Shown: positions 18,001 through 60,000 of the stretch, one piece after another
Layout of the letters: each line of letters starts with the position of its first letter
Position numbering within the stretch: the first letter of the stretch is position 1
Assembly: GCA_032622095.1 (NCBI GenBank)
Contig: CP136068.1
Location: forward strand, 49,160,443-49,224,442
DNA from: Siphonodentalium dalli
Taxonomy: Eukaryota; Mollusca; Scaphopoda; Gadilida; Siphonodentaliidae
Length of the DNA: 64,000 nucleotides
Direction: 5' to 3'
Translations under genes and position numbers: made by a program
The notes under the pieces: model-generated
What the model was told of the DNA's origin: nothing
Database searches by the model: none
The model's input: only the letters and a program-made list of their open reading frames with translations

Positions 18001-21000
18001 GTTAGTTAATATAACGACTGATGGTTAATTAATATAACGACTGATGGTTAGTTAATATAACGACTGATGGTTAGTTAATATAACAACCGATGGTTAGTTA
18101 ATATAACAACTGATGGTTAGTTAATATAACAACTGATGGTTAATTAATATAACGACTGATGGTTAGTTAATATAACGACTGATGGTTAGTTAATATAACG
18201 ACTGATGGTTAGTTAATATAACAACTGATGGTTAGTTAATATAACAACTGATGGTTAGTTTGTTTCTGCTTTTACAGGTGTGAGGCCCACTTGATTCCCC
18301 AAAATATACTTATTAAGTCCCACATTCTCCTTGTTGACCCTTCCATGACTGGAGCTTCCTGTAATTTAGCAAAACCCTGTTAGTGCATTCTCTTATAGAT
18401 GCGAGTCTCCGATAGGGACCCTCTCATATATAAGAAAATGCATTGGCCTAACAATATTTACCTTGAACTTGTAAGCCAGTGCATTCTCTTATATATGTGA
18501 GGCTCCTTATGGGAGACTTTCATATATAAGAAAATGCACTGCAGCTCACGCCATGAAAGGGTTAAAATGTTTGTGTGAAGTAAATATATTGAGCCACACT
18601 GTTGTTTTTGTTAATAATTATCACATGAGAATGGATGGCAAGGATACCCCAATCCACTCACGGGGTATCCTTCCGCAATCTGCTCTGGTGTGGTAATCAC
18701 TAACACGAATATAGCTCTATATTTATCACATAATTTAGCCGCTAAATCCAGCCTCATATTTTTTAGTAAGATACACGTGTATTATCGGCACGCACAGTGA
18801 GTAAGAGCTTAACGCAATGATGTCGGCTGAAATATTTCAATAGATTTAACCCTTTCTATACTAAATGGATTCTCCCACTCAGTTATAAAAGTATACATTG
18901 GAATGGTCTATTATTCATCGGGAGGGGTTTTCCTGAAATTTTGCAAAAACCCTGTTCCAATGCATTCTCTATATATGCGAGTCGCCCATAGTGTGCCTCG
19001 CATATATAAGAGAATGCATTGGCCTAACAATATTTACCTTGTCCTTGTAAGTCAGTGGTTTCTCTTATATATGTGAGGCTCCCTTTGCGAGACTTGCAAA
19101 TATAAGAGAATGCGCTGCCACAGGATCTCTAATCTGCTCCAGGATGTTGCACCAGCGCAGCTCCTGTCATGAAATGGTTAAAGTGTTAATCCTTATCTTG
19201 GTTAGAATGGCACACTGAATAAGGCATTTTGTATTATTTCAGACGAAAAATTCCAAAACGATCTAGAAGAGAATGAGAAGGAAGTGGGATCATGTGATGA
19301 GGAGTATGACAAGACATTGTCTCAATTCTCATCATTACGAGTCGATTTACGACCCGAGTCACAAACCAGGGATTACACCGATATCGAAGAGCTAGATAAA
19401 CTGGTGTCATTCACGATGGATGATGAATGTCTCTCCCTCAAAGAAACCTCTCTGGTTGACTTGTCTGAGAAGGATGTATTTGAAAGCGACTCGACACAGA
19501 TTCAGGAAGAAAATCTGGTTAATCTCCCATCTAAACATGAGATTGGGACTTTTACACCAGAAAGCTGTGGCCGTGGAGATTTTTACAGCGGAAGTCTCCA
19601 GGTAGGTTGTACCATAGTCAAACATTGACCCTCAGGCTGTTCATTTTGAACATGGCAGGGGACCTGAAAACATTCCTATGATGGGCCTACATGTGCCTAA
19701 ATTTTATATGGGACATTAAATGCTGAATTTTAATAAATAATGCATAAATAGTATGTTATTGTCAAGTTTGTACGCTTTGTTATGTAAGCAAAAGCAAAAA
19801 ATTGTTATATGAACCTGTCATAAAATAAATATCACGTAAATAGTATGTTATTGTCAAGTTTGTACGCTTTGTTAAACAAAAGCCAAAAATTGTTACATGA
19901 ACCTGGCTTTTGTTTACATAATACATCATATGAACTTGACAATAACATATTATTTACACGATATTTATGATTGATTGGTATAAGAACAAAATATGTCTAT
20001 ATTTTAATATTCTTTCTGTTTTTAACAGCAATACTGACTGTGAAGGCCGTCCGTGCCGTTAAGAGAAGTTTGTCCAGTTGTGCTTATTTCTATTGTTTAC
20101 TATTAGGCTTCAATTGACTTATAAGAAGGCCCCATCACATGCAGGGCTGTTTGTGGGGTGTGGGCGCTAGGGGCACTTATGTTAATGCCCTAAATAATTG
20201 ACTCCTTAACCACAGCATAATTATGGGTAATTTTTCAGGATTTTTCAGGATATATGGGTTGTTGCCATTCATCGGAAAGCTCTCTGAGAGATTTCCAATG
20301 AATGGCAACAAGCCATATTTCCGACTAATTCCTGAAAAATTACCCACAATCCTGCTGTGGTTAAGGAGTCGATTATTTAGGGCATTACTGTATGTTGGAG
20401 ATACGATTGAAGCACTTCCTTCCATGTTGTTTTGTATCATATTTGAGCTAACTACATAGACAGAATACAACGCGAATCTTATTGGAGAATCTTTTTATCG
20501 AATCAATTGCGGACTTTGCATGGATGTATTTCAGGAATGTGGAGCTTGAGTGAAAATGTGACTATGCAACGTCAGTAAAAAGTTCGATAAAAGATTCCAG
20601 AATATGATGCAAGTTGTGTTTAAGTCTGACGAACAGCCGAAGCCATCATTGATGTACGTTATGTACGTCATTTCTCTTTGGAAACAATTTACACTGAAAG
20701 TAGTTCCGGCTTGTATTCCACTGGTGGTATACAAAGATAGGTATTACTGAAATTTTGCGAAAAACCCTGTGCCAATGCATTCTCTTACATATGCGAGTCG
20801 AATGCATTGACCCAACAAATTTTATATTATTTTCTATAATTGTTAAAGAATGTAAGAAAAAAATAAAAAATAAAAAAAATAATTAAAATTGTTAAAGAAT
20901 ATAAGAAAAAATAATAAAAATTGTTATAGAATGTAAGAAAAATGATAAGAATTGTTAAAGAATGTAAGAAAAAATTTATATAAAAAAAATGATCAAAAAA

Positions 21001-33000: not shown

Positions 33001-36000
33001 ATATGCACTTTGTATCATATTGGTGTTATCAAGTCCTCCTGCAGTTTGTAATATAGGGATCTGAAAACTTCCACCTTCGTCGGGGGACATTTTGGTCAGC
33101 GACCTTTTATTTTCTCTACTCAGTCTGGAGGTGATGGTGAAGGTGATGACGATGATGAAAGAAAGCCTCGACGGAAAAGTGATGACTTCAGTAACGATCC
33201 TCCAGATGACTATAAATCTTACAGAAAGAAACACGCTAAAGTGTCTGTGTCTCAACTACCAGAGCTTCTTGGGACACTGGTGAGTTTAGTACCACAGTAA
33301 AACCTCTCCAAACTGGACCCTCTATAAACCAAATCACTTTCCATATGGACCAAATTGTTCTGTCCCGAATTCCCCCAAGTGCATTCTCACTAAAAATCAC
33401 CTCTGTAAAACGGAAACTCTCTATTACAGACATCGAACAGCTTTTCTAGTCCAAAAGTGAACAAATACATAAATATTTACCTCCGAAATCCGAACGCGGA
33501 AAGCGATACCAACCGAACGCACATGCAGTAAATTTGACATACTTGATGCTTAGCTCGTGTTGGCTCTATTGTAGACTGGGGATCCTTTCTAAGTTTAAAT
33601 TTCTGGTCTATACATTCAACTCGTGAATGGTCTTGATGGCTCATTCATTTTGACAGGTTGATTAAAACTTTATTGGTGACAATACACTACCATCTTGTAC
33701 TTTTAGCTAATTAGTGTTTAGTTTGGACAGTGGTCGTAACAATAAGAGGCCAGTTCAGCTCAGTGATGGATGTAAAAACCTAGTGTCAGCGCTGTATTAT
33801 CTGTGAAGTCACCATTGTTCACTCAAAGTGTTAAATAAGCATACAGTTATCTAATCAGACAGCTGCCATTATCATCCGGTTCAAAGCAATCGCCGAACAA
33901 AACACCGCTAATTAAATTGGTACGAATATTCAATAGTACAAAACTACTATACTAATGATGTGACATTTTTTAGCGACATTAAAATCACCGTAAAATTTAC
34001 CCTTTCCATGTTTCCTGTCTTATGATATCTATACATGCATTACATCTTATTAGACCATGTTTTAATTATACCCCCAATTTCGAAGAAAATGGGGGGGTAT
34101 ACTGGATTGACTGCGTCCGTCCGTCACGATTTCTCCCTCCGTATGTCCGTCCGTCCATCCATCCGACCTCATAACTCGAACAACTATGAACCGATTTCAA
34201 TAAGTTTTTGTATGCAATCTCCTTAGGACTGCCTCTCCGCATAATGCTAATTGCGGTTCAGTCCGACTTTTTGTCCCCCGAAAAATTTATTTTTGGGGGA
34301 CTATAGAAACGGGCTCCGTCCGTCCGTTCGTCCGTCCGTCCGTCACACTTTTGAGTACCTTCATGGTGTAATCATCTCCTCCTACAGATTTCATCCCAGA
34401 GATTTGAAACTTCAGAATATTGTTGCCCATATATTGAAGATGTGCAACATGTATATAGATGACGGAAAAATTATTTTTTGACTGAGTTATTAACCCTTTT
34501 CGACTTAGAAAATTTCAACCTTTTTTTATAATTGTCTGTACGAGGGTACCTCGTGGTGTAATCAACTCCTCCTACAGTTTTCATCCTAGAGATTTGTAAC
34601 TTCAGAATATTGTTGCCCATATATTGAAGATGTGCAACATGTATATAGATGACGGAAAAATTATTTTTTGACAAGAGTTATTAACCCTTTTTGACTTAGA
34701 AAATTTCAACATTTTTTATAATTTTCTGTATGAGGGTACCTTCGTGATGTAATCAACTCCTCCTACAGTTTTCATGCTAGAGATTTGTAACTTCAGAATA
34801 TTGTTGCCCATACATTGAAGATGTGCAACATGTATATAGATGACGGAAAAATTATTTTTTGACAAGAGTTATTAACCCTTTTCGACTTAGAAAATTTCAA
34901 CATTTTTTATAATTGTCTGTATGAGGGTACCTTCGTGGTGTAATCAACTCCTCCTACAGTTTTGATCTTAGATATTTGAAACTTCAGAGTATTGTTACCC
35001 ACATATTGGAGATGTGCAACATGTATATAGATGACGGAAAAATTATTTTTTTACGGAGTTATTATTATTAACCCTTTTCAACTTAGAAAATTTCAACATT
35101 TTTTTTTTTAAATTTCTTCAACAAAGCGGCATCGACTTGCCACCTTTTCGGGGGACACTGTGGTCTGCTGACCTTTTATTGTTTTTAAGTTACGCCTCAT
35201 TTACGACTTATTTTGACTTAGAAAATTCTGTCAGACTTAATAACTTTAACAAATATGAACCGATTTCAATAATTTTATGTATGCAATCTCCTTAGGACTG
35301 CCTCTCCGCATGATGCTAATTGCGGTTCGGTCCGACTTCTTTTTTTAAAGTTACGCCTCATTTTCGACTTATTTTGACTTAATAACTTTAACAAATATGA
35401 ACCGATTTCAATAATTTTTGGTATACATGCTTCTCACAATACCCTCTCTACATGATGCAGCTAGGGATTGGCTCAGACTGTTTTTCGTAATATTACACTT
35501 CATTTTCGACTTATTTTGACTTAGAAAATTCTGTCAGACTTAATAACTTCAACAAATATGAACCAATTTGAATAATTTTTTCTGTACAAGCTTCTTGTGA
35601 CACCATATCGATATATTATTAGTCCGAATTTTTCTTTAAAGTTAAAAATCTTTTTTGTTGGGTTTACGGATAATGCGGGTTGAATTTGCCACGGTGGGGG
35701 TATGCTAGCACTCGAGTGCACACCTCTTGTTATATTACATGTTTTATATATTGTTATATATATTAGTTGGTACTTTATTGAATGCAGTTTAATTAATCAA
35801 TAATGAGTTGGTTGTACTTCTTGGATTTTACTCTTTGCATTACTAAATCATTTGACACACCCTACAGACCACATCGTTATATGATTGTCACCAAACTTCA
35901 TATGGATCTCTTGAGTGACCATTAGATGAAAGCCATCTGAATGTCTTTGAAAAACATGGCCACGACCATCTTGGATTTTACTCTTTGTATTACTTAATCC

Positions 36001-39000
36001 ATTGGCACAGCCTACATACATTACTCGTCAGACCATCACTAAACTTAATATGGGTCTTCCGGATGACCTCTAGATGGGAGCAGGCTTGGGGCAATTACTT
36101 GTGAATGTAATTAATTACAATTACAATTACTTCAACATTTTTCAATTACAATTACAATTCCCATTACATCTATTTCACAATGTAATTAATTACAATTACA
36201 ATTACTTTGAAATGTAATTCAATTACAATTACATTTCAGCACAACATTGAAATAGGAACACTTTTTATTTATATAAACTCTATTTGATAACAAAACATAA
36301 ATTTAATACAAGCAAGATGAAATACACAGTGAAGCACACTTGGTACAGAGCAGCCAATGTACTGAGTCCAGTATAGGGGTTCGTAGAACTGAGCGAATCA
36401 TGATTTATAGCTGGTAATTCCAGCGTGTTGCATTGACAGCTTGTAGTCGGGGTTGATCTTCTAGAAATTGGAATGATATCAGAGATTTATAAACTTTGCT
36501 AACTATTTTCAATGCTTTGGCATTCTTGACCGATGTTTTTGCATACTGAAAGATACTAGTAGGTTGTTGATCACTTGCTGATGGTGATTGTGTGACTGTG
36601 GATTCATAGACATCTTGATGCTTTCGCTATAAATTGAAAATAATAGAGTATTTTAGTAACACACATGTATCCATCATATAATTATTAAGGGAATAAGACT
36701 ATCTCAGTAAGCCAGACACACAGCCAGGCCAATTGTAAAGGACAATGAGATAATCAACACTCTGATTGTTGAGTCATAAACTTAATTAGCCTTTGTGGCC
36801 ACCAGCTTACTGGTAACACAATGCCTCCACTAGACAGTGCTAATTGGGGGATTATTGAGGCAGATATTTGTCCCCACTTTGTCATTCAGTTGCAAATTAG
36901 AAGGGACAAGAAACAATGCATATACCAATACCACCATATGACTGACGTTATATGTCAATGGAATTAAACAAAACTAATACATAGAAATGGAAACTTACCT
37001 TCAGATGTGTCACAAAATTGGAGGTAACTTTTTTGGAACTGGATATTGTAGTTGGGCAAAGTTTGCACTTCGCTTTCATAGGACACGATGTGTCTTTCGC
37101 CAAATTAAAATGCTGCCCGATTTTTTGTAGACATTAGCAATGGTTGGTATGAATTTCTACCATAGCATATATACCATAACAGATGGAGATAATGAAACAT
37201 GATCATAAGAGTGATATATTATAGTGATCTATTGTCAATTATTTGAAGTTGGTTTCTCATTGTATTTATCAAAACAAGCCTTCTACCTCAAAGGTTAACC
37301 AATGCTTAAGCAAACAAACAGGAGGTGTCAACAGAATTCACCATTGAGACAGTGGATAAAAACTCAGTGTTGTGACAACATAGTGATAGCCAGTCACCAG
37401 TCTAACACTTTGAAATTTGGAAAAAAACATTTGAAGAAACCATTGGATGAATCAAGAAAGAGAACTTTGAGAAGAAACAAGTACCTGTGATTTTGAAGTA
37501 ATTGAAATTAGACCCTAATTACAATTACAATTACATCCTAACCAATTACAATTGCAATTACATGTAATTGAGAATAAACTCAATTACCAATTACATGCAA
37601 TTACTTGGAAAAATGTAATTAATTACAATCAATTACAATTACAAATTACAATTACCCCATCCCTGGATGGGAGTCATAAAATTTTCATAAATTTTGTTTA
37701 AAAATATGGCCAGCTGCAGTCATCTTGGATTTTACTCTTTGCATGACTAAATCCTTTGGGACACCCAACAGACCACATCCCTCACCCGATGTCACCAAAC
37801 TATGTATGGATTTTCGGGTTGACCACTAGATGGTAGCCATACAATTTTTCCAAATTTTGTTGAAAAAAATGGCCTACAGCGGTCATTTTGAATTTAATTT
37901 ATATATATCTCTTCATGTTCACATCTAGTATTACTTAGACATTTCAACTTTTCGCATTCAAAATCACTCCATTGACTGTAACACATGAAATGATCCCCTC
38001 TCCAAGTTGAGCTACAGTGTCATTGACACTTTCATTAAAACATTCAGCCACTGTCTTATTTGGTCACAAACAGCATGAACACTGCTTGGCAGTTTAACAC
38101 TTTTATGTGTTATGCAGTGAAACACTAAAATAAGTCCACAATTTTCTTCAAATTTGTTGAGTCATTGTATCAAACAATTAATGAAGGCCAATGCTGATTT
38201 TGCAGGTAGTCCCAGATTTCACCATTGAGAAGATGTTGGAACACAAGGACTTTCTGGAAATCCTCAACTGTCTGCTGATTTGTGCATTGAATTTCGACTA
38301 CGGATCTGACGAGGATGATGGAAACTGCTTTGTCTGTGTTATGCTGGAGCAATTACTGCGACATTTTGCCAAATGCTTCGATTCACAACAGGACTGTCAT
38401 CTTTGCAAGCAGGTTACCATGCTGACGCTGGGTCATGTTGAAATTTGCTTCGCCGAAGTTGACTCCAGATGTCCGGCTAAATTATGCAGGCGAATTCGGC
38501 ATGCAGTATCCAATCAAATTTCAGTCCTTAGAAGCAAACCTCAGACCGTGATTAGAAGATTGAAAACATATCTACAAGACTGCTTCGGCATCGACATTGT
38601 AGATGTAGAAAGCGTTGTAGAGCCTGATCGTGAATCGGAGGTTCAGTTAGGAGGAATTATTTCATCAATCCTCGGAATAAAGCAACCGGAAGATAGCGGA
38701 GCTATTCTGAGACGACCAACACGCAAGCTGTCAATTAGAAAATCACGGCTGACAAGCATAGTAGAACAGCCAGAAGTCAGCCGCGAACCCAGACTTGAAA
38801 CCGATCCTGCTGAAGTTATATACGAACGAGAACAGGCTTCTATTCGTGAAGAAGTCAAAGAAATTGGATCACTGGCGCAAATCCAAGAAACGGAAACAAA
38901 ACGTCGAGAGATATCTGTTAAGATATATGGCACTGATAGATATACAAGCTTGCCAATGAGGAAACATAACCAAATGATGAGTCCTAATCAGCTGTTGTCG

Positions 39001-42000
39001 CTCACGGATAGACCGACTGGGGTGCCCGGAATCGGGGATATGGTTTACGGTTTCCGTCGGCAGCTGAATAAGGTGGGAGAGCACTGGGTCTTGTTGAAGC
39101 AATACCATGAGGAGGGGCAGGATATCAGGGAGCCCCGTGAGGAGGGAGTCATCCTCTCTGATTACAAGGTATATATCTTCCTAATTTAACCCTTTCTATA
39201 CTAAATCGATTCTCCCATCAGTTATAAATATATACATTGGAATGGTCTATTATTCATTTGGAGGGGTGTTGTAATAAAAGCAGACAGACAGAATTACAAA
39301 ATGATAATAAAAGGGCAAAATAATAAGCTTAGCAAACGACCTTTGAACTTATTTTTATATCCCCCATTCAAAAGATGGGGTGGTATGCTGTATTAAATGT
39401 GTCCGTCCATCCATCCGTTCATTCGTCCGTCCGTCCGCTCATATATCTCAACCGTTGGTTATCGGATTTTGATGAAATTTGGTATGCAGGTTTGGCATCA
39501 GGAGGACTTTCAAAAGAGGGTTCATTGACGTCGTTCACATTTTCCATTCAAGTGTTATCCCAGGTTGATTAAAACCAGATTTTCCATTACCATCAGCAAA
39601 TATTACGTCAGTGTCAACCAATCACAACATCTATCAGCAAAGCGATGCAGCCATTCAGGCGATTGTCGGAATTCCTACACAGCAGTGGATTCAGAACATA
39701 TCTAAAAATAGCTCAATAAATATTCTGTCAAACTTCTATTTGTGTGCTGTGATGTCATACTTGATGGATCGCATGTAGAAGTTATTTATAATGACGGTAA
39801 TGTGACACAGAACTCAATTCGCCAAACACAGTACTACGAAGCTGGTTCGAGTCTGGTTTTAATCAGACTGAAGTTATCTCTCTTTGTTTATCTGAAAATG
39901 TTGAATTTCCCTCCGTTCGCTCATATATCTCAACCATGGGTTATCGGATCGCGATCATATTCGGTTTGCAGGTTTGGCACCAGGAGTGCTTTCAAAAGAG
40001 TGTTCATTGACATTGTTCACATTTCTGTTTGCGAGTTATCCCTCTTTGTTCATCTGAAAATGTTGAATTTCCCTCCGTTCGCTCATATATCTCAACCATG
40101 TGTTATCGGATCACGATCAAATTCGGTTTGCAGGTTTGGCACCAGGAGTGCTTTCAAAAGAGTGTTCATTGACATTGTTCACATTTCTGTTTGAGAGTTA
40201 TCCCTCTTTGTTCATCTGAAAATGTTGAATTTCCGTACTTTTGCTCATATATCTTAGCCATGGGTTATTGGATTCTGTTGAAATTTGGTATGGAGGTTTG
40301 AATGAAGGTTCAGTTATGTTATTATCATTTTCCATTCAAGATTTATCCCTCTTTGTTCATAATAAAATGTTGAATTTGTGTCCCTCCGCTCACATATCTT
40401 TTTAAATTTGGTTTCGGTTCTGCCCATGTTTCAATTGGCACCATGGGGGTATGCCAGCACCCAAGGTGCATCTTCAGAACATTTCATATGGTAACTACTC
40501 GTCAAGGAGTATTTAATATAGAAAGGGTTAAACATAAGCAGTCAATCCACGAAATATTGTACAACAATTAGTTCTCAGTTAATGATCCATTACGGTTATT
40601 TCTAGATAACCTTAATCTGTGTCAGTCACACTTCTAGAAAGCTCACGTGAATGCGGACTGTTTGTCAAGATGCCAGTATTGTTGATTGCAACCAACACTG
40701 TGATAAAAAATTAACTTATTGAGGACCATAATTGTGATAACAATACACAGACCTGGCTGTTTTTCGAACTCGAAAAACTCAACCAAAAATAGGCCAGTCA
40801 GTTAAACATTCATTAGAGGTGCCACAATTATTGATTTTGATAGTCGATAATCGGTCGTCAATAATCGACTATAATCGATTAATCGTAGCTGGTACCTAAT
40901 ATTAATAACATCAGTGGAAGTATTCCGTAATATGGCCTATTGGCCGGGTTCTGGTCAACTGCTGTCGCTGGTTGTTTCAAGCTTTGGCTGATGTAATTGT
41001 TAGATTAATAAAGTGGATCATAAACCACCGGTGATGACTAATGAGCACAATGTATTCAATACCAGCACAGTTATTTTGGTGATGTCATGGTTTGTGAATT
41101 CATTAGGACGAAAGTAGCAATTAATTTCAGTGTTATGAATAATCAAACATACAAACAATAATGCACGACGGACCACCGGCAGTTCCTAAAAAAGGGAATC
41201 TAATGTTACGGAAACTATAAGTTTCAGCAAACTTCCAGAGCATTGATAACAATCACAAAGTTGGGCCCCACCCGCAAATTTCAGGACTGAGAACAAGATA
41301 TGTATTTGATAATAGTGAGATTCATTTGCTAGTCACCACATGATAATCAATAGCCTGTACTAGTAACATATAAATATACGCAAACAAAGTATACTCGCAA
41401 ATGACATCGCGGAGAACACCGCTGATTAAAATGCCATTCATGTATATGTTTCGGATATCTTGTAATTATGAGGAAGTATTGCTGAAGAATTATTAAAGGG
41501 ATACAGTTCAGTTGCATTTGGGATCATCAATATGATATATATGAACAATGTCAATCAACTCCACATTGGTCTAATCTAGGGCGAGTGCATTCAGTTCGCT
41601 GAACACGATGACATTAGGCACATTTTGAAGATATAGTGCCGCCTTTCTTGTAGAAATATACAACGACGTCGCCATAAGTCCAAGGCTTCTGTGCCGACCA
41701 TTTATAGAATATACGACCCGAAGAGTAACCACGTCACATCATCAAATGAACTGCCGACTGTTTGCAACATATTAGTAGTACTCATATTGTCCGAATCTCT
41801 TTGATACGCGAACAAATGTTGTTAACATCTTGGTTGTAGATTAAACTGTGTAAAACAAACACGGTATTCAATAATACCTGTTTTTTACCCGAGATTAATC
41901 GACGACGGAAATGGTAATCGATTATCGGCTTTATCAACGGTTCATCGATTATACGATTAATCGTGGTACCTCTAACATTCATGATATTAAAATATATTTT

Positions 42001-45000
42001 TGGTCAAGTTTTTCAAAGGTTTTTGAGTTCGAAAACTGGCCAGGTTCATGTATTGTTGTCACAATTATGGTCATCAATAAGTTATTTTTCGTGATTTTGA
42101 TCCCGATAGCACGATAACTTGAACAAATATCAACTGATTTTGTGAATATTCGATATTTGAGACTTGGTGAACAATTTTCGTGATTTTGATCCCGATAGTA
42201 TGATAACTTGAATAAATATCAACTGATTTTGTGGATATTGGATATTTGAGACTTGCTCCACAATGTATGTCAGACTTCCTCAACAGTCTTGTGCATGATA
42301 CCCAGTTACGATTAATTAATTTTCAATACAAGCCCATGTTTCACGTTGCTACCGCAACTCGACCCCACATCTCTGTTGAGAATTCTCTGTTTGTTTTTTA
42401 GAATGATATGCTGATATCCAAGACGAGATACCAGCTGGATGTTCAGTGGCAGAAATCTATTCACCTTGGGAACGGAATGTCAGGGAAGTGCTTTCTTGCT
42501 ACCGATATGGACACCGAATATCAGTTCTGTGTCAAAGTGGTTAGTTTAAGCTTCATATGTTCAAGAAGGCGAAGATCTGGCTAATTCTCCATTGATATTA
42601 TTACAAATGTTTTCATAACTTATTATTCAAGAAATTCAAGAAATTAAGTTACATCTTGAAACACATAAGGCATAATGTGCAGGGATTCCACTGGAGAGGC
42701 AGTTGGTCCCTTTCCCCTACCCCAAATTTCCTCTCCGACACATTCCCCTACCTGATCCACAGATTTATACCTATATGACGTGCACAGTAATGCCATAAAT
42801 AATCGACTCCTTATCCACAGCATAATTATGGGTAATTTTTCAGGATTTAGTCGGAAATATGGCTTGTTGCCATTCATCGGAAATCTCAGTAACAAGCCAT
42901 ATTTCTAGACATGGCCAATTAGTTTTATTTAGTGGCAGATACAGTAATGCCCTAAATAATTGACTCCTTAATCACAGCAAAATTATGGGGAACTTTTCAG
43001 GATTTAGTCGGAAATATGGCTTGTTACTGAGATTTCCGATGAATGGCAACAAGCCATATTTCCGACTAAATCCTGAAAAGTTACCCATAATTCTGCTGTG
43101 ATTAAGGAGTCGATTATTTAGGGCATTACTGTATCTCCCACTAAATAAACCAATTGGAATGATATATGTAGCTAATGCTGACCACTAGTTAACCATTTTA
43201 CTTTTAAAATATTTTCAAGAATACACATATTAAACATTTATTGCATTGTTTCGAGGTTGACATGAGGATTTATCAACCCAAGGAAGTTAATATTCACCGA
43301 GGCCACATGTGCGGAAATTACTGAATAGTCATCGGAATGCCATTGCCCGTACAGTTGGTCCTAATTTCATGCCCCCTCATGATTAGAGACACCATTAGAA
43401 TCCATGGTTGACAGTCCTTCCTCGTCGCTGATCGAAATGATCTATCTAATGATAAAGGGATGTTATTTTACATTGCACCAGAAACGTTTCATCTTGACAA
43501 CATCTGCTTTAAAATCAAGCTAACTTGATATGTTGCTGTCCCGATTTGTGCTAATTATGTAGACGAGATATCAGCGATTTAAGGTTTCTCAGTTCTAGGT
43601 ATATGTTCTAATATATTTCACCTCACCCAGAAAATGTCGCCTTCTGATTGGCTGAGAGCTGTGTCCTATATGGTGTAGTATTGTGCTAAATTTAGCACAC
43701 TACTATACTTGTTTAGTGTTGTACTAAATTTAGCATACTACTATACCAAACGCACATGTAAAAAGTAATGAGCAGAGGCAACAATCTCAAGAACAGATAT
43801 ATGCAAATGAGAACAACAATTTACTAAGGCGTTTCCAAATGGAACAACGTCAACTTGCGAAGTGGTAAACATTCAGTTGAATTCACCTTGTGGTACAGTT
43901 TCAGGTTTTCGTTCATTAACCCTTTACCCAACAGAATGGCCCTGTGCCAATGCATTCTCTTATTTTTTAGGCCAATGCATTCTCTTATATATGCGAGGCG
44001 ACCTATGGTCGACTCGCATATATAAGAGAATGCATTGGCACAGGGCTAACTGTAACTATCACAATGTGGTCAAGGAGCCGGTTCCAATGATATCCTTATT
44101 TGTATGGTTCTATTGAGACAGACCGAAGATATTTTAGGCTGTTAAAGCTTTATTTGGCCGGTTTTGGCCGTTTTGTTGGGTAAAGGGTTAAAAAAATCTA
44201 AATAATGCATGTCTCGGTTTATTGAACTAGACATAAACACATCTTTGTGACGATTATGTCTCTCGTAAACTGTTTATTGGTAAGTGGATAATCATATTTG
44301 TTCTTTGAGTAGTATGTTCTATTAACATGCTATGAAGGGAATTTAACAGTCCCTCAGTTAGTGTTGGTAGAATACAGTTATGAAGTATACATGCTTCAAG
44401 TTCGAATTGTTCAGTGAAATATAATGAATAGAGAATGTCTTGTCATTGACTACAGTAATGCCCTAAGTAATCGACTCCTTAAACACAGCAGAATTATGGG
44501 TAACTTTTCAGGATTTAGTCGGAAATATGGCTTGTTTCCATTCATCGGAAAGCTCTCCCCGATGAATGGCAACAAGCCATATTTCCGACTAAATCCTGAA
44601 AAGTTACCCATAATTCTGCTGTGTTTAAGGAGTCTATTACTTAGGGCATAACTGTACGTGTCTATTGTGCCCAGTGGAGTGGGTATAGTTCAATCCGCTT
44701 CATGTCGGGAACTATACCCACCCCACTGGGCACTAGACCCATATAGTCAAATCCAAGGCATGCTCTATTGAATATAAAACATTCTTGGTTTTTCTTTAAA
44801 TTATCGTTTTTAAATATTTCAGGTTCATATCAGCAATTTTGAAGTTGGGGAGTTGGAAATTTGCAGTGACATGAATCATATCAATATAGTGAAGATGTAT
44901 GGGGCACTTAGAGATGGCGAGCACATCTACATGTTCATGGAATTTGTTGATGGTTTGTACACAATTTGGTTTTTTATATGCCCATTTTATTTTTGTCATA

Positions 45001-48000: not shown

Positions 48001-51000
48001 GTATCCAGAATTGTGTATATCGACCTCCTACATGTTTGTACTAAGATGTCAAAGGTCGAGGAGTCCAGAGAGGAATGCTCCTATGTACTCTACTTATGAT
48101 GTAAATGTTATGATATTTCAGGTGGGTGCCTTACGGAGCATATAAATAACCAGAAAGCACTGGGCAGACGTTTCAGCCAACGGACTGCAATGCATTATCT
48201 AAAACAGCTACTCAATGTACTCATCTATTTTAGAAATAAAGGGATCATACACGAGGATCTGAAAGGTAAGCCTCATATACCGGGGATTTAACCCTGTCAT
48301 GGCGGGAGCTGCGCTGGTGCAGCATTAATGACCCTGTTCCAGTGCATTATATTATATATACAAGTCTCTCATAGGGAGCCTCTCATATATAAGAAAATGT
48401 ACTGGCTTGCAAGGTCAAGGTAAATATTGTTAGGCCAGTGCATTCTCTTATATATGCGAGACGCCCTATGGGTGACTCGCATATATAAGAGAATGCATTG
48501 GCACAGGGTTTTTGCAAAAAATCAGGAAGCTCCAGCCATGAAAGGGTTACGGGATCATTCATGAGGGCCTGAACTTACCGGTAAGCCTCATATGATAGGG
48601 ATTTAGGGGGTCATATATGAGGATCTTAAAGGTAAGCCATCATGTTCTGCCGATTTAAGGGATAATTTGAGGGAGGTATGAAACAGTATATGATATTCAA
48701 GGATTGTTTATGATTTTAGCTTTCTGTTGGCTTTAACAGGAATATCGTGAACCCTAAAACTGACTCCAATCCAGTCAGCTTTAGAGTTTTCATGATATTT
48801 TCTTTAAATGTTTTCTCCTAGTCAGAGGATCAAATCACATTGAAGTATTTTAGATTACAATAATGAAAACGTTCTTAAAAATGGTTTACCCAGACCTCGA
48901 AAAATTTCCTTAAAGAAGCATAATCAGAATTAACACTCGCAAATTACTATTTCCTTGACTTCAGGGGTAAAAAATATATGATTCGAGGCGAGAAACCCAC
49001 CCATCAAAGCTCAGAGTGGTCAAATATCGATGTTTGACATCTATTATTTTGTACCACCGATAATTTTTAAGTGGCCCAGTAAACTGTCGACGAGAAGAGG
49101 GTATCGGACCAAGTTGCAGATGAAGATGGATAACTCTAAAATCAAGTGGCTTTTTTTGTGTCAGATATTTGACAAACCAGCAAAATTTCGTTTAACAAAA
49201 TGTTCATAAATAACAGGTTTTTGGGCAATTTTATACTATAGCTGACTGTGGTTAGCGTTATGTTTGGCCAATTACTTGCTTCTGATAACTGAAGCAGCAT
49301 TTCAAAAAATTTTGTTGTTGTTGTAATCTGATGATATGGGGACCATCAAATTGGATTGAGTACCTTTAAAAGTTTTTTAATCTGATTCGCATAGAGTGAA
49401 CCGTGACCTGTACAATAGATTGTGAACCGTGACCTGTATAATAGATTTTGAACCCTGACCTGTATAATAGATTTTGAACCCTGATCTGTATAATACATTG
49501 TGAACCCTGACCTGTATAATAGATTGTGAACCCTGACCTGTATAATAGATTTTGAACCCTGACCTATCCTATGTGAACCCTGACCTGTATAATAGATTTT
49601 GAACCCTGACCTGTATAAAATATTGTGAACCCTGATCTGTATAATAGATTGTGAACCCTGACCTGTATAATAGATTGTGAACCCTGACCTGTATAATAGA
49701 TTGTGAACCCTGACTTATCCTATTTGATCCACAGGTGACAACATCCTCCTGGTAAGAGGTTCAAATCATATTAAAGTGTGTGACTTCGGACTCGCCAGAC
49801 ACGTTGAGATGGGTCTAAGTCTCAAGAAGCTCTCACCCGTCGGGACCCAGACACAGTGGAGTCCAGAGAAGGCTGCGAGTGAGGGCTACAGCTTCCCTGC
49901 CGAGTTGTGGGCTGTAAACTGCACAATCGTACACATACTCAGCACCTATCCTCCTTGGGTCAAGAGATTCCCATTTGCCAAGCTTCTACACTTTGTGGTG
50001 AGTACTCATTCATTTAACTGGATGTGGCTTGTTTGAACGTCAACAATTATTTATATGTAATCAGGTCATTATATGTAGAAATATTCGCGAAACACCAGAC
50101 GTTGACGTTTATACACAGATAAAAATTAGGGATATGGCTTGAGGGTGTCTATTTTGAAGTTTCCAACTGCACCTCCTCCTTTGCACTTGACCAAACTCCC
50201 AATTATTGTTTGCACTGTCCCCCAATCCACCTGTGTTGGAACATTCCAACTGGTACCTCAAGCTATGTAACTGTTCGTTTTTACCAAAAGTAGAAAGTAT
50301 GTTAAATTCCCCCACTAATTAATGGTTGTAAAATCTAACAATTTGAACAATTGCAACCATTATATGGTGTAAAAATTGAACGAGTGTTGTGTCAGGCATG
50401 AAATTTTCAGCTGTTGTAAATTATAACCAAAGTTGGGGGGGCTTTTCCTCCTGGTAAAAATATTGCCGAGGTCGCAGGCTGGAGGTCGTAGCAATTTGCA
50501 AATTTTTACAAACGCTCTTTATTTATACAATATCATGAAGATATGAGAAGGTATATCCTGCCAGCAATCAAGGACTTAATCATTATTTATATATCTTTCA
50601 GATATATGACAAGTCACCTCCCTTGGAAGATGTTCCGAAGGATATTCTACCCATCATTAAGGATTTAATAACGAGAGGCTTCACTGTTGATCCAGATAAG
50701 AGGCCGACACCATTTGATTTGCTTCGTCATCAAGCATTCAACCTTATTGGTATGTACAATGTGCCATATTAGCTAGGAGTCCTGTGAATATTAGAAATAT
50801 TAATTCGATATCCATATCGGTCAATATTATTTTAATTCACAAAAAGAGATAAGCAAAAAGGTGCCAACTGGATTTCATAAAATAGGCATGCACAATTCCT
50901 TGCTTCACATAACTGCAGAACTGCAATATCTACGGATCTGTGACAACAAAAATCTGTAATGAGTAGGCCAGATGTGCAAAATCAGAGAGGAAACGGAATA

Positions 51001-54000
51001 AATTAACACTACCTGCTTTGATGTATCCGAGTGGCGATTTGATGTGATGATTCAATTCAGGGCATAATTGCCGATTCGCAGGACACTAATATTAACAACA
51101 CTTACAGGGTTCTATTTGTTCGGTTGTACATTGCAATTCCCATAACATTTCATGGCAGTTTACAAATAATTTCAGGGCATCTATTCCATTGACTATTTAC
51201 TGAACATATCGTGAATTTAGGAATTTTGTGTTTATGTTATCAGTACATACCTACCAATGGGAAACAGTTCATTCCGATGTTTAACCCTTTGAGTGCCAGG
51301 TCCGATTTTTGTATCAACCCATATACCCTGTGCCAATGCATTCTCTTATATATGCGAGTCGACCATAGGTCGCCTCGCATATATAAGAGAATGCATTGGC
51401 CTAACATTTTTTTTTTTTACAATTTTTTACAATTTTAATAATTTATTCTTATATTCTTAAACAGACTTATTTTGTAGGTTTAGGGCCGATGAGATCGGCC
51501 CCTGGCACTCAAAGGGTTAATAATTTTCTAACTGAATGATCATATGAATTGATTCAATTCGATGTGATTCAGCATGTTTTAGTGTAAGTTTTGTTAATTT
51601 GCTGGCCGATTTAAATGTTATCGAATCATTTGCTCCAGGTGCTTTCACACGCTGCCAATGATTCAAAATGCTTTTGCGTGCATAACACTAACAAAATTAT
51701 TGAACGACACAAACAGATCAGAATTGACCTATAGATAGAAATATTGCAAGAATGATGTAATTGCACCAACTAATTACACCAGAAACTTCCATACCCAACT
51801 GTCATGTCCAAGAAAATCATCTGGGAATATATCACAAACAAGTCTGCAAATCACTGTTTAAGTCTGATGATAAGTATGTCTTTACAACTACCGACAGACA
51901 CTCCCTATCTTCCGTCACATCCACATCCCGAGCTTCAGCTAGCTGCATAAATGCTCCTCGTAGTGGCTGTAGGGCTACACTAAATTGGTTGGATAAACAT
52001 AAGAACTAGTCAAATATGTCATATTTATATACTAAGTATATATATATATATCTCACTCTCTGATAAATGTGTTTTCCATCTATATGCTCGATGCAACGAT
52101 TTGATTGGGGATTCAATTCAAACTGAAGGAGAAATTTCAACCAGAAATTGATGGGATGAACTAATTTTAATTTCAGAGCCCGGCGTTAATGAAAACTACT
52201 ACAGCACTTTCGCAGGCAGCGACTCTTCGATGGAAAAGGACAGATCATTGCCGAATCGACAGAACGAAACTGAAGGTGCATCTGCAGAAATGACAGTGGA
52301 TTCTAAAACAGAAACATCTCAGGAGAGTAGAAATATCACTGAAACTGTCGTTCAACAACCTCGCAAAACCAGCTCAAATATGCCAGCTACTGTCGATGAC
52401 ATGAGCGCAAACGAGAGTACAAATGTCACAGAAACTGTCATCCCAGCTACTGTTGACGACATGAGCTCAAAACATCTTGAGAATATACTCGCTTCTCTGC
52501 AAATTGAGTCAAATGATGAAAGAATACCTGCTAATGAAGAAGTAGCAGAAGTGGGTACCAGAAAGGAGGAGAGCCTAGATCTAGATACGGTAACCATAAG
52601 AGATCCTGCAGATCACCCTCTGTCCACCCCTTGTCTGCCTGCAGATCACCCACCGTCCACCCCTTGTCTGCCATTACTGCCAATCTTTCTTAATGAAGTA
52701 CAATTCACATCTGAGTGTTCGGCATCAACTGTTTGCAGCTCGACAGAAGATGTGGACAGAGTTAACAGTGACGAGCTATTTGAGAGTCGTGAGAGTAGTG
52801 ACGGAAGTAGCCACATGATGTTTGCAGCGTCGGGAGACTCGAAGAAGAATTCCGGAGAAAGCGCGCCAAAACTTTGGTTGGATACGAGTAAGCAGGTTAA
52901 GCACACATTAGCACGAAGCCAGACTTTCCCAACTTCTGCAGAGGGAGCTGAATTTGCTGAAAATTTCAGAATTCCCAGGAATTCATCATTCATAAACACT
53001 TTGAAGTCAGTCGTTTCTGGGAATACAGTCATTTCTAGCAGTAGCACGTCATCAGGCATCTGGTCGACTCCCCCATCAGCTAATGCTTTTGGACCGACTC
53101 CTTCGTCGTCTAGCAGTAGACCACGGAATTATAGTACAGAATCAGGGTTCTATCCAGGTACACCGAACACTGGAAAATCGGCCAATAAACAAGCTGAAGA
53201 AGCCATAAAATGGTGTGAGTATTAACCTTTTAAATGGTGTGAGTATTAACCTTTTAAATGGTGTGAGTATTAACCTTTTAAATGGTGTGAGTATTAACCT
53301 TTTAAATGGTGTGAGTATTAACCTTTTAAATGGTGTGAGTATTAACCTTTTAAATGGTGTGAGTATTAACCTTTTAAATGGTGTGAGTATTAACCTTTTA
53401 AATGGTGTGAGTATTAACCTTTTAAATGGTGTGAGTATTAACCTTTTAAATGGTGTGAGTATTAACCTTTTCTATACTAAGTGGATTCTCCCACTCTGTT
53501 ATTAAAGTATACATTGGAATGGTCTATAATTCATCTGGAGAGGGGTTTTCAGAAAAAATAAGCGGACGACAGATCATACAAGTGCAGAAGGAGTCCTATT
53601 TGTTGAGGAAATGATTCAGTGTTGAACTAAACCCTTTAATGACTGGAGCTTCCTGAAATGTTGCGAAAACCATGTGCCAATGCATTCTCTTATATATGCC
53701 GTGTCGTCCATAGGGCGCCTCACATATATAAGAGAATGTATTGGCCTAACACCATTTAACCTAATCTTGTAAGCCATGTGAGGCTCTCTATGGGAGACTC
53801 ACATATATAAGAGAATGCATTGGCCTAACAATATTTAACTTGATCTTGTAAGCCATGCGAGGCTCCCTATGGGAAAATCACATATATAAGAGAATGCATT
53901 GGCCTAACAATATTTAACTTGATCTTGTAAGCCATGCGAGGCTCCCTATGGGAAAATCACATATATAAGAGAATGCATTGGCCTAACAATATTTAACTTG

Positions 54001-57000
54001 ATCTTGTAAGCCATGCGAGGCTCCCTATATGTCCGAGAATGCACTGGCACAGAATCTTAATGATGCGACATCGCAGCTACCGTCATGAAACGGTTAATAT
54101 CTGAACATTTAACCCTTTACCCAACAGAAGGACCCTGTGCCAATGCATTCTCTTATATATGCGAGTCGACCATAGGTCGCCTCGCATATATAAGAGAATG
54201 CATTGGCTTAACACATTAAAAATTATAAAATTGTTAAAGAATGTAAGAAAAAATTGTAAAAAGTGTTAAAAAAAGATTTTTTTTAGGCCAATGCATTCTC
54301 TTATATATGCGAGGCGACCTATGGTCGACTCGCATATATAAGAGAATGCATTGGCACAGGGCTAACTGTAACTATCACAATGTGGTCAAGGAGCCGGTTC
54401 CAATGATACCCATATTTGTATGGTTCTATTGAGACAGACCGAAGATATTTTAGGCTGTTGAAGCTTTACTTGGCCGGTTTTGGCCGGTTTGTTGGGTAAA
54501 GGGTTAAGAAGGGAATAACTCGTCTATGAGTATTTAGTATAGAAAGGGTCAAAGTTGCATAATCCGATTAAGCGCCCCTCAATTACTATTTGTTTGGATT
54601 CTGGGGTAAAAAATATTTGATTCAAGTCGAGGAACCCACCTATCAAAGCTCAGAATTATTAGATATCGATTTTTGAAATCTATTAATAGTGACCCAGTAA
54701 ACAGACGACGAGCCGATGGTCTTGGACCAAATTGCAGATGAAGATGGATAACTCTAAAATCAAGAGGGTTTCTGTTGATAATAAGGCCAAATTTCGTCGA
54801 ACAACATGTTGATAAATAACACGTTGGGTAATTTTATACTATAGTTGACAGTGGTTAGCATTATTTTTGGGCAATTAATCGTTTATGATAACTGAAGCAG
54901 CATTTCTCAAAATGTTATTGTTGTTGGAATCTGATTATACGGGGACCATCGAATCGGATTGAGTACCTTTAATGGTACCACTTTAACCCATTATTGACCG
55001 AATGGATTCTCCCATTCAGTTATACATTTATACTTTTATAGAGTGTATTCTTATTTAAGTGGAGGGATGTTAAGATATATGAGTAGATGAAAGTCAGACG
55101 AATAGATAATATAAGTGTTTAAGGATTCCTTATTCATATGGAGGAATTGTTAAGATAATAAGTTATTGTCATATGGCCAAACAGAATCATCTGGCAATCT
55201 TTCACTAAATGTTGACAACCTCGTTGAACAAACCAAAATTATTATTTCTTCAAAGAATTACTTTTATATGACTTAAAAATTTTAACTTTTTATGGGTAAG
55301 AGCAAACCTGGAAATAATATGTCTGTCATTTGAAGAATGAGGTCCCCAGAGGTATCCCAGATGCTAGCATCACCATGATTCAACTGCTATGGGAGACCTA
55401 GGATCAGATTCAAGTTCCTCAATTGGTGATGTTCACCTTGATTATGCATTTTATCTTCTGCAAATTAGGGGATATATAGACTTCTCTGAAGGGAAAAAAT
55501 AACTAAAAACAACGTTAATTTGAGACTATAGATACTTCCCAGAAGATGAGGCCTAAGCAGAATAAGGTTCCCAGAGGGTGAATTTGGTGATGCTAGCCAA
55601 CTGAGCGGGATAGCATCACTAAATATACCCTCAGGGGACCTCATTCTGTAAATGACAGACGCTTTTTGCAGGCTTGGGTAATAGTGACCAAGAACATATT
55701 TTGTAGTAATTTTGGAATGGTATAGTCTGTTCAGACTTCCAAGTGACTGGTCATTCTCCAGTATATGATGAGTAGCTCAACATTTATTGGTCTTTTCGGT
55801 ATATTGCAAATTGTGATATATAATTTTGGTATTTTAACAGATCTGAGTCAGACACCACCAGACGTTGAACAACAGCAGGTGAGTATAGTGTTCGTTGTAA
55901 CTATGGGAGTGGGGGGTACCAGTAAGTAATTTCTGCATGTGTCCCCTAATTCCAAATGCCTGATATTTGTATAATATTGAGGTGCGTAAATATGTCTAAA
56001 TTATGGGAACATCTCCTTTTATACTCCAAAGAATACAGGCAACAAATGAATGAATTTGAGCCATGGATTAGTGTAAAATACTCTCATGTTCTCTATGAAT
56101 GATGCAAACAACATGGTAATTATAATGAAAATTAATTTATGACTCCAGACATTTATTCATTCTCATTATAATTACCATGTTGTTTGTATCATTCTTAGAG
56201 CGCATGAGAGTATTTTGATCTAATCCATGGCTCAAATTCACTCATTTGTTGGATATATTCTGTTGAGTATAAAAGGAGATGGTCCCATAAATGGCCAGAT
56301 TTAGTCTACAGTACCCCTTTAAACTATTGTAAATATTTAAAAGTCCCTAAATTATTAATTCAGAGGCCATGTGCTTCTGACGTGAAATCACGCAGTTCGT
56401 GAAAGTCTATAACAATTAGTCAGACCGACTACTTATGTGGGTGTGTAGTTAACTTGGAATCGTTTGTTACACCAGAAGAAAGGACATCAATAGCGAATTA
56501 TGAAATTCTATATTGGATTCTATGGCTTTTTCTATGGCATTGCTGTTAGGCCAAAAAAAAAAACCTCTTTGTTTCTGATACCCTGCCTGGCTGAGATTTT
56601 CTTGCCTGCCTCAATTTTTTTCTTCAACTTTGCTCCAGAAGGCTAGTCTATAGTTACCTGTTAGATTGTCAATGTGAATATTTATCGTTTTTCTCAATCC
56701 CAAAAGCAAAACAAGTTGGTTATTAAGCTCTAACGTTGGTAGAGATCTTACTCCAGAGTGAATGAATTGAAGGGACAGCATGTTTTTATCAAATGCTTGG
56801 CTCATATTCAATACAAATTGATCTACCATATTCCATGGGACCGTGATCACTACACTATTAAATCGCTCACAGCTGAAAGGTTTTATAAAAAAAAATTGTG
56901 AAAATAAAAACATCCCTGCCTGCCTGTCTGGAAAATTATCCCAATGTTATTGGAAAAAGAGAAGTTTTTTGTTTTGGTCTTATCCGTAGTTAATATCAAA

Positions 57001-60000
57001 GGCTGCGAATAAAATGTTTCGGGACCATGCACGCGGGCCTGAGAAACAGGATATTGATTTTTCTTGGTTTTATTCACACTTTGTATAATTTGCAGTTACT
57101 CGAGATACCAGAGAGCAAGATAAATGAACTAATGATTAGTCAGCATCTGGGTGAACTTCAGCAAGGCATGCAACCGTCAGGTTAGTGCTAATTAAATGTC
57201 ACCCCCATCATGGTCACTTATATTCCCTCTAACCCCATCATGGTAACTTATGTCCCTCAGGGGATGAATTGGCCCCATCATGGTCACTTATATTCTCTCT
57301 AACCCCATCATGGTAACTTATGTCCCTCGGGGGATGAATTGACCCCATCATGGTCACGTATATTCCCTCTAACCCCATCATGGTCACTTATATTCCCTCT
57401 AACCCCATCACGGTCACTTATATCCCTCGGGGGATGAATTTACCCCATCATGGTCACTTATATTCCCTCTAACCCTATCATGGTCACTTATATTCCCCCT
57501 AACCCCATCATGGTCACTTATATTCCCCCTAACCCCATCATGGTCACTTATATTTCCTCTGAGGATGAATTGGCCCCATCACGGTCACTTATATTCCCTC
57601 CGAGAATGAATTGGCCCCATCACCGTCACTTATATTCCCTCTAACCCCATCACGGTCACTTATATTCCCTCAGAGGATGAATTGGCCCCATCATGGTCAC
57701 TTATATTCCCTCCGAGGATGAATTGGCCCCAAAACGGTCACTTATATCCCTCGGGGGATGAATTGGCCCCATTATGGTCACTTATATTCCCTCTAACCCC
57801 ATCACGGTCACTTATATTCCCTCCGAGGATGAATTGGTCCCATCACGGTCACTTATATTCCCTCTGAGGATGAATTGGCCCCATCACAGTCACTTATATT
57901 CCCTCCGAGGATGAATTGGCCCCATCATGGTCACTTATTTTCCCTCTAACCCCATCACGGTCACTTATATTCCCTCTGAGGATGAATTGGCCCCCATCAT
58001 GGTCACTTATATTCCCTCCGAGGATGAATTGGCCCCATCATGGTCACTTATATTCCCTCTAACCAATCACGGTCACTTATATTCCCTCTGAGGATGAATT
58101 GGCCCCCATCATGGTCACTTATATTCCCTCTGAGGATGAATTGGCCCCATGACGGTCACTTACATTGTATATTCCCTCTGAGGATGAATTGGCCCCATCA
58201 TGGTCACTTATATTCCCTCTGAGGATGAATTGGCCCCATCATGGTCACTTATATTCCCTCCAAGGATCAATTGGCCCCATCACGGTCACTTATATCCCCT
58301 CCGAGGATCAATTGGCCCCATCATGGTCACTTATATTTCCTCTAACCCCATCATGGCCTCTTATATTCCCTCTAACCCCATCATGGTCACTTATATTCCC
58401 TCTAACCCCATCATGGTCACTTATATTCCCTCTAACCCCATCATGGTAACTTATATTCCCTCTAACCCCATCATGGTCACTTATATTCCCTCTAACCCCA
58501 TCATGGTCACTTATATTCCCTCTAACCCCATCATGGTCACTTATGTTCCCTCTCACCCCATCATGGTCACTTATATTCCCTCTAACCCCATCATGGTTAC
58601 TTATATTCCCTCTAACCCCATCATGGTCACTTATATTCTCTCTAACCCCATCATGGTCACTTATATTCCCTCTAACCCCATCATGGTTACTTATATTCCC
58701 TCTAACCCCATCATGGTCACTTATATTCCCTCTAACCCCATCATGGTCACTTATATTCCCTCTAACCCCATCATGGTCACTTATATTCCCTCTAACCCCA
58801 TCATGGTCACTTATATTCCCTCTAACCCCGTCACAGTCACTTATATTCCCTCTAACCCCATCATGGTCACTTATATTCCCTCTAACCCCATCATGGTCAC
58901 TTATATTCCCTCTAGCCCCATCATGGTCACTTATATTCCCTCTAACCCCGTCACAGTCACTTATGTTCCCTCTCACCCCATCATGGTCACTTATATTCCC
59001 TCTAACCCCATCATGGTCACTTATATTCCCTCTAGCCCCATCATGGTCACTTATATTCCCTCTAACCCCGTCACAGTCACTTATGTTCCCTCTCACCCCA
59101 TCATGGTCACTTATATTCCCTCTAACCCCATCATGGTTACTTATATTCCCTCTAGCCCCATCATGGTCACTTATATTCCCTCTAGCCCCATCATGGTCAC
59201 TTATATTCCCTCTAACCCCATCATGGTCACTTATATTCCCTCTAACCCCATCATGGTCGCTTATATTCCCTCTATCCCCATCATGGTCACTTATATTCCC
59301 TCTAACCCCATCATGGTTACTTATATTCCCTCTCACCCCATCATGGTCGCTTATGTTCCCTCTAACCCCATCATGGTCACTTATATTCCCTCTAACCCCA
59401 TCATAGTCACTTATATTCCCTATACCCCATCATGGTCACTTATATTCCCTCTTACCCCATCATGGTCTCTTATATTCCCTCTAACCCCATCATGGTCGCT
59501 TATATTCCCTCTAACCCCATCATGGTCTCTTATATTCCCTCTCACCCCATCATGGTCACTTATATTCCCTCTCACCCCATCATGGTTACTTATATTCCCT
59601 CTCACCCCATCATGGTCACTTATATTCCCTCTAACCCCATCATGATCAGTTATATTCCCTCTAACCCCATCATGGTCTCTTATATTCCCTCTAACCCCAT
59701 CATGGTCACTTATATTCCCTCTAACCCCATCATGGTCACTTATATTCCCTCTCACCCCATCATGGTCACTTATATTCCCTCTAACCCCATCATGGTCACT
59801 TATATTCCCTCTAACCCCATCATGGTCACTTATATTCCATCTAACCCCATCATGGTCACTTATATTCCCTCTGAGGATGAATTGGCCACTTCTATAATTG
59901 TATAAATGAGTTAGAGATTATTCCGGGTTCCATATTAATTTTTATGAAATCTAATTTACTTTTTATTTAAAGGCCCACTTTAATTTTGATTATTTTTTGT

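Follow-up and report, generated by a model that had tools for sequence, protein, structure and literature searches.

The window studied here is a stretch of 64,000 nucleotides of the scaphopod Siphonodentalium dalli, located at C8:49160443-49224442 in an assembly of 2.23 Gb and 9 contigs. It carries on its forward strand a gene whose product is best read as a member of a known kinase family with a new domain architecture: a zinc domain resembling the TAZ2 domain of CBP/p300 and, further along the same chain, a kinase of the NIK/Tpl2 type. The zinc domain lies in exon 11 of this gene (38206..39168, 963 bp), in which only one frame is open and which is of phase 0 at both ends. The borders of this exon are canonical, with ttttgcag before it and ag/GTAGTC...TACAAG/gtatat at the junctions; after the TAZ2-like domain it encodes a linker and a pre-kinase segment like that of NIK (MAP3K14). 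Compared with the whole genome at E <= 10, exon 11 matched only itself (6 candidates scored). Its residues 1-126 found no relative in the viral contigs scanned, and NCBIfam, a prokaryote-oriented library, gave no match for exon 11 nor for the C-terminus of the protein.

The zinc domain of exon 11

Exon 11 encodes 11 cysteines, 10 of them within residues 22-94 (residues are counted from the start of the exon), and these ten with two histidines form three possible ligand sets: CCCC, HCCC and HCCC. Finger 2, H53-x3-C57-x6-C64-x2-C67 (38362..38406), and finger 3, H77-x3-C81-x7-C89-x4-C94 (38434..38487), align to TAZ2 and agree exactly with what a previous sequence-only reading of the window had described; 0/200,000 shuffles of residues 1-126 gave a pattern of this kind. 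Both have the HCCC ligands with TAZ2-type spacing, the loop of finger 3 being 3 residues longer than in CBP-type TAZ2. The likeness to TAZ2 (CH3) of CBP/p300 comprises the succession H-x3-C-x(6-7)-C-x2-C then H-x3-C-x(4-7)-C-x4-C and the motif CxxCKQ; the domain is moreover uninterrupted by introns, as is the CBP-type TAZ2 of this same genome.

Finger 1, C22-x3-C26-x14-C41-x2-C44 (38269..38337), departs from the TAZ2 of CBP/p300: it has four cysteines and no histidine, and it carries a 14-residue acidic loop (with DYGSDEDDG). The previous reading had noticed the missing histidine, which stands, and had proposed from it a domain with two zinc ions instead of three, which we do not favour. This finger need not be crippled: with a C-x3-C and a C-x2-C pair at the expected place, its four cysteines could make up a full CCCC site, the C-x3-C possibly standing in for the H-x3-C of TAZ2 (a pairing made by eye). 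Because four cysteines could thus fill finger 1, the two-zinc proposal was set aside, and the domain probably binds three zincs.

The assignment to the TAZ2 type is supported by several comparisons. In Pfam, zf-TAZ (PF02135) is the sole family that hmmscan reports for exon 11 at E <= 10, with 22.9 bits (E 1.2e-4) for a 123-residue piece and 19.7 bits (E 0.0012) for the whole exon. The phmmer matches to PDB at E <= 10 amount to 8 distinct sequences, all of them p300 TAZ2 chains or fusions, the best at E 0.059. A TAZ2 profile built from three TAZ2 loci of this genome and a p300 piece gave residues 1-126 a score of 25.3 bits, which none of 20,000 shuffles reached; when the cysteines and histidines were held fixed only 2/20,000 did, so that residues other than the ligands also fit TAZ2. 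Likewise hhalign, in a single comparison of residues 27-104 with the three TAZ2 sequences of the genome, returned a probability of 85.7 and an E of 5.5e-6, against a probability of 0.1 for exon 17 of the same gene, taken as control. A TAZ1 profile (two loci of the same genome) scored the domain at 4.6 bits against 25.3 for TAZ2, and a TAZ1 type was rejected. The resemblance to TAZ2 therefore extends past the ligands, as judged from the ligand-fixed shuffles, hhalign and the two profiles, and the TAZ-type zinc finger announced by the previous reading is here seen as a divergent TAZ2-type domain.

The other TAZ domains of the genome include those of a CBP-type gene at C5:70.65-70.70 Mb (L001, L003, L007). 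Extra TAZ1/TAZ2 loci, apparently CBP-like duplicates, lie at C3:92.3 Mb (L002), C1:141.2 Mb (L004 and L008), C1:37.2 Mb (L005, whose TAZ2 is clearly divergent) and C3:37.5 Mb (L006).

The kinase

The kinase is distributed over five exons, all placed by homology and phase: exon 12 (42402..42539) with the glycine loop and a VAIK-type lysine, named by eye; exon 13 (44823..44952), homologous to MAP3K8/14, from the helix C glutamate to the hinge; exon 14 (48122..48265) with the non-RD catalytic loop HEDLKG; exon 15 (49735..49997) with DFG, the activation segment and SPE; and exon 16 (50602..50749) with the end of the C-lobe (PPLEDVP...). Exons 15 and 16 were also retrieved by the genome search and the gene finder.

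Once spliced, the kinase matches Pkinase of Pfam at 4.8e-45. Its best PDB chains are those of MAP3K8 (Tpl2; 5e-37, 130.8 bits) and MAP3K14 (4.4e-34, 121.1 bits), ahead of MAP3K2 (1.5e-29, 106.2 bits), the query used being one valine short at an exon join. This order agrees with the kinase type given by the sequence-only reading. The N-terminal part alone places MAP3K14 (1.1e-10) before MAP3K8 (5.6e-9), and we make no choice between the two. The catalytic loop reads IIHEDLKGDN here, ILHGDVKADN in NIK and VIHHDIKPSN in Tpl2, the HRD arginine being missing in all three; the catalytic aspartate, the lysine, the asparagine, CDFG and the glycine loop are retained, as read by eye in the alignments. 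With Tpl2, which ranks first in PDB when the complete kinase is compared, our kinase also shares the segments PPWVKR(Y/F)P and PPLED. These data support a kinase of the NIK/Tpl2 type.

When the genome was searched with this kinase (196 candidates, of which 141 were scored, giving 141 matches), five places of the gene itself ranked first and other kinases reached 62.1 bits at most. Three of the latter were read, one SIK3/TSSK6/MARK-like according to PDB (L015), one MAP3K1-like (L020) and one MAP3K2/3-like (L021), these two by eye; no second NIK/Tpl2-type gene was seen among these three, in a search where intron-split kinases are easily missed. The kinase stretch of human NIK gave 127 matches, among which the window appears once, with exon 15, at one of the lowest ranks (E 0.0013). 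The remainder belong mostly to a kinase array on C2, and this search is uninformative, because intron-split kinases cannot compete in it.

The array itself, at C2:149.82-150.59 Mb (G000), contains dozens of equal-scoring kinase open reading frames (ORFs), mostly of 281 residues, arranged in tandem and mostly about 2-3 kb apart; one of them, L015, has SIK3, TSSK6 and MARK as best PDB matches.

The junction between the two domains

The join of exon 11 to exon 12 keeps the frame (phase 0 to 0), and its intron has GT-AG borders. Its 3' end encodes the segment EEGVILSDYK (39139..39168), which phmmer aligns to NEGVLLTE just before the kinase of NIK, in an alignment that exon 12 extends; after shuffling of the last 35 residues of exon 11, 34/5000 sequences score equally (Z 3.2). 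From exon 11 to the stop the gene would comprise 11 exons and 10 GT-AG introns, consistent in phase, for 1084 residues. Since the phases match, the borders are GT-AG and the NIK-like segment stands on exon 11 itself, the fusion of the TAZ2-like domain and the kinase in one protein is well supported by the genomic DNA; the previous claim of a 963-bp exon leading in phase into the kinase is likewise supported.

One might object that exon 11 is part of a different transcript and has been wrongly attached to the kinase. The joining was indeed read from genomic DNA, and the title of a study on chimp kinases attributes their "novel architectures" to gene-prediction artefacts (PMC2823696). Against such an error stand the shared phase 0 and canonical sites of exons 11 and 12, the NIK-like segment at the very 3' end of exon 11, with its 34 equal scores in 5000 tail shuffles, and the fact that exon 11 matches nothing but itself in the genome. 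We hold an artefact of this kind to be very improbable. As exon 11 is symmetrical (0-0), its skipping would keep the frame, and could yield a form of the kinase devoid of the TAZ2-like domain.

A proposed role for the TAZ2-like domain

Vertebrate NIK and Tpl2 have partner-binding regions, and their control in vertebrates involves TRAF3 and p105; NIK probably does not need phosphorylation of its activation loop. The TAZ fold, of four helices around three zincs, has been described chiefly in CBP/p300 and in plant BTB-TAZ proteins. Vertebrate MAP3K8 and MAP3K14 are not known to contain it.

From the TAZ2 signature, the kinase family and the frame common to both, we infer a docking and regulatory role for the additional domain. 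The gene would encode a non-RD kinase of the NIK/Tpl2 type with, on its N-terminal side, a divergent and probably three-zinc TAZ2-type domain serving as docking and regulatory module, a reading that we consider reasonably probable. The TAZ2-like domain would bind a peptide and regulate the kinase, and the docked partner, an adaptor or a transcription factor, would set where and when the kinase acts. This non-RD kinase, like NIK, probably needs no phosphorylation of its activation loop, and its control would operate through partners and abundance. The TAZ2-like domain would then correspond to the regions through which vertebrate NIK and Tpl2 bind their partners, and something other than an acidic activation domain could dock onto it.

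Several observations weigh against this reading. The evidence is the sequence of this one genome, compared with Pfam, PDB and loci of the same genome. The search against zf-TAZ, which the sequence-only reading had put forward as a check, came out divided: the family was the only one reported, at E 1.2e-4, but neither exon 11 query reached its curated gathering score of 25 bits (22.9 for the better one). In a genome-wide zf-TAZ search, 8 places appeared at E <= 1 and the window is not among them, for which reason we call the match divergent. The own-genome TAZ2 profiles are thin, being drawn from three loci of which two are 94% identical, and automatic alignments leave C22 and C26 unpaired with the H-x3-C of TAZ2. 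Taken alone and without gaps, the ten-residue pre-kinase match is moderately significant (299/20,000 shuffles). Finally the net charge of the domain is -2 over 126 residues (+4 over the 73-residue core), against +19 over 100 residues for the CBP-type TAZ2 of this genome; the surface for acidic peptides is therefore not obviously retained.

Some of these points would suit a quite different origin, namely convergence of an unrelated zinc-binding module towards a TAZ-like spacing, the region being regulatory and zinc-binding without any TAZ domain. The zf-TAZ score under the Pfam cut-off agrees with it, as do the identity of only 25% to the CBP-type TAZ2 of the genome and the E of 0.059 for p300. 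Convergence on the ligands, on the other hand, would not account for the other residues fitting TAZ2 as well (2/20,000 ligand-fixed shuffles), nor for the hhalign E of 5.5e-6, and Pfam reports no alternative family; we regard this origin as quite unlikely.

The charge also bears on the nature of the partner. TAZ2 of CBP/p300 binds acidic transactivation peptides, and the domain in the window could do the same with factors of the Rel or STAT type, the kinase phosphorylating its target or riding with it; this would be a special case of the docking module. Rel-homology matches occur at two places of the genome, C5:176.25-176.26 Mb (three) and C6:207.58 Mb (four), so that an NF-kB partner is available, and the segment after finger 3 appears basic by eye. 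The near-neutral charge given above speaks against such binding, and so does the acidic loop located inside finger 1. Binding of Rel/STAT-type peptides is in our view unlikely, and the docking onto an NF-kB/STAT-type activation domain suggested by the previous reading is slightly disfavoured.

The docking module, whatever its partner, distinguishes this protein from both vertebrate kinases. The common features with NIK are the kinase domain, the non-RD loop, the pre-kinase segment (EEGVILSD here, NEGVLLTE in NIK) and a long C-terminal tail; the differences are the TAZ-like domain and a C-terminus at best weakly similar. Tpl2 has a short tail, whereas about 490 residues follow the kinase here, in addition to the TAZ-like domain before it. 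Conversely, compared with TAZ2 of CBP/p300, the domain is attached to a kinase, besides its low identity and near-neutral charge.

By title or start of abstract, and among the matches listed from 5.39 million open papers, no TAZ-kinase fusion came to light: we found nothing pairing a TAZ zinc finger with MAP3K14 or zf-TAZ with Pkinase, and nothing on non-canonical NF-kappa B with NIK in Crassostrea gigas. MAP3K14 genes are named, with no detail of their domains, in passages of studies on mussel (PMC11299980) and anemone (PMC7654579). A survey of the Aplysia immunome reports that InterProScan failed to identify orthologues of MAP3K14 or MAP3K8 (PMC9334734), which suggests that invertebrate members may be overlooked. 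The TAZ2-kinase architecture may well turn out to be widespread in one or another group of invertebrates. More tentatively, the gene could be a pro-orthologue of NIK and Tpl2 whose TAZ2-type domain directly engages the transcription factor or adaptor that it targets, so linking kinase and transcription partner within one protein; the vertebrate copies would have lost this link in favour of separate adaptors, and we find this scenario rather doubtful. A TAZ2-like domain in a kinase of this type could bridge NF-kB/MAPK signalling to the docking of transcription factors or adaptors, and would offer a way to ask how the kinase was controlled before the TRAF3/p105 arrangements of vertebrates.

Remaining exons, C-terminus and repeats

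The gene finder was run at three penalties and its chains are not consistent. All three included transposase-derived ORFs, and the lowest penalty minisatellite ORFs as well; exon 13 was chosen at none of them, exon 14 was dropped at the highest, some upstream exons were read in different frames, and the end of the last exon at 64202 was found at the highest penalty only. The placement of exons 12-16 is therefore based on homology and phase, that of the exons upstream of 38206 or after 53214 on score and phase.

Upstream, probable exons supported by codon/splice score and phase are 16270..16619, with an uncertain start codon (one run of three starts at 16274), 19243..19601, found in all three runs, and 33124..33279, which joins exon 11 in phase 0 (two runs of three start at 33057). 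Downstream of the kinase, exon 17 (52177..53214), an open frame supported by phase and codon/splice score, encodes a long Ser/Thr-rich C-terminal region. It would be followed by exons 18 (55841..55878) and 19 (57096..57180), both without homology, by exon 20 (62367..62491), these three being probable by codon/splice score and phase, and by a probable last exon (64020-64202, by phase), which ends just past the window. All these exons are on the forward strand. Pfam at E <= 1 gave no family for the C-terminus nor for 19245-19601, and for 16274-16618 only DUF2553 at chance level (E 0.13).

By eye, the segment 62367-64202 looks like the C-terminal domain of NIK. We do not claim it: BLASTP gave no significant match, and alignment to a human NIK C-terminus sequence had a Z of -0.08 with free ends, which skip most of both sequences, and of 2.8 when anchored and global (38/5000 shuffles). 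With regard to the TRAF3-binding N-terminus of NIK, TRAF-type motifs counted from exon 11 onward number 4, 1 and 0 against 2.9, 1.1 and 0.2 in shuffles. The sequence PAEVIY fits the TRAF6 consensus, but it carries no meaning, because a shuffled sequence has 1.06 motifs of this kind on average.

Eleven perfect repeats of 24 bp (53208-53471), which begin at the final bases of exon 17, reproduce the splice donor region of that exon (ATGGTGTGAGT); the frame of exon 17 meets a stop inside the first unit. A 30-bp minisatellite at 58316-59872 (52 copies, 94% matches) can be read without stops on either strand (NPIMVTYIPS and others) and is probably non-coding. Upstream, transposase-derived ORFs in different frames lie at 28616-29701 within a probable intron, HTH_Tnp_Tc5 (1.6e-8) and DDE_1 (1.3e-5).

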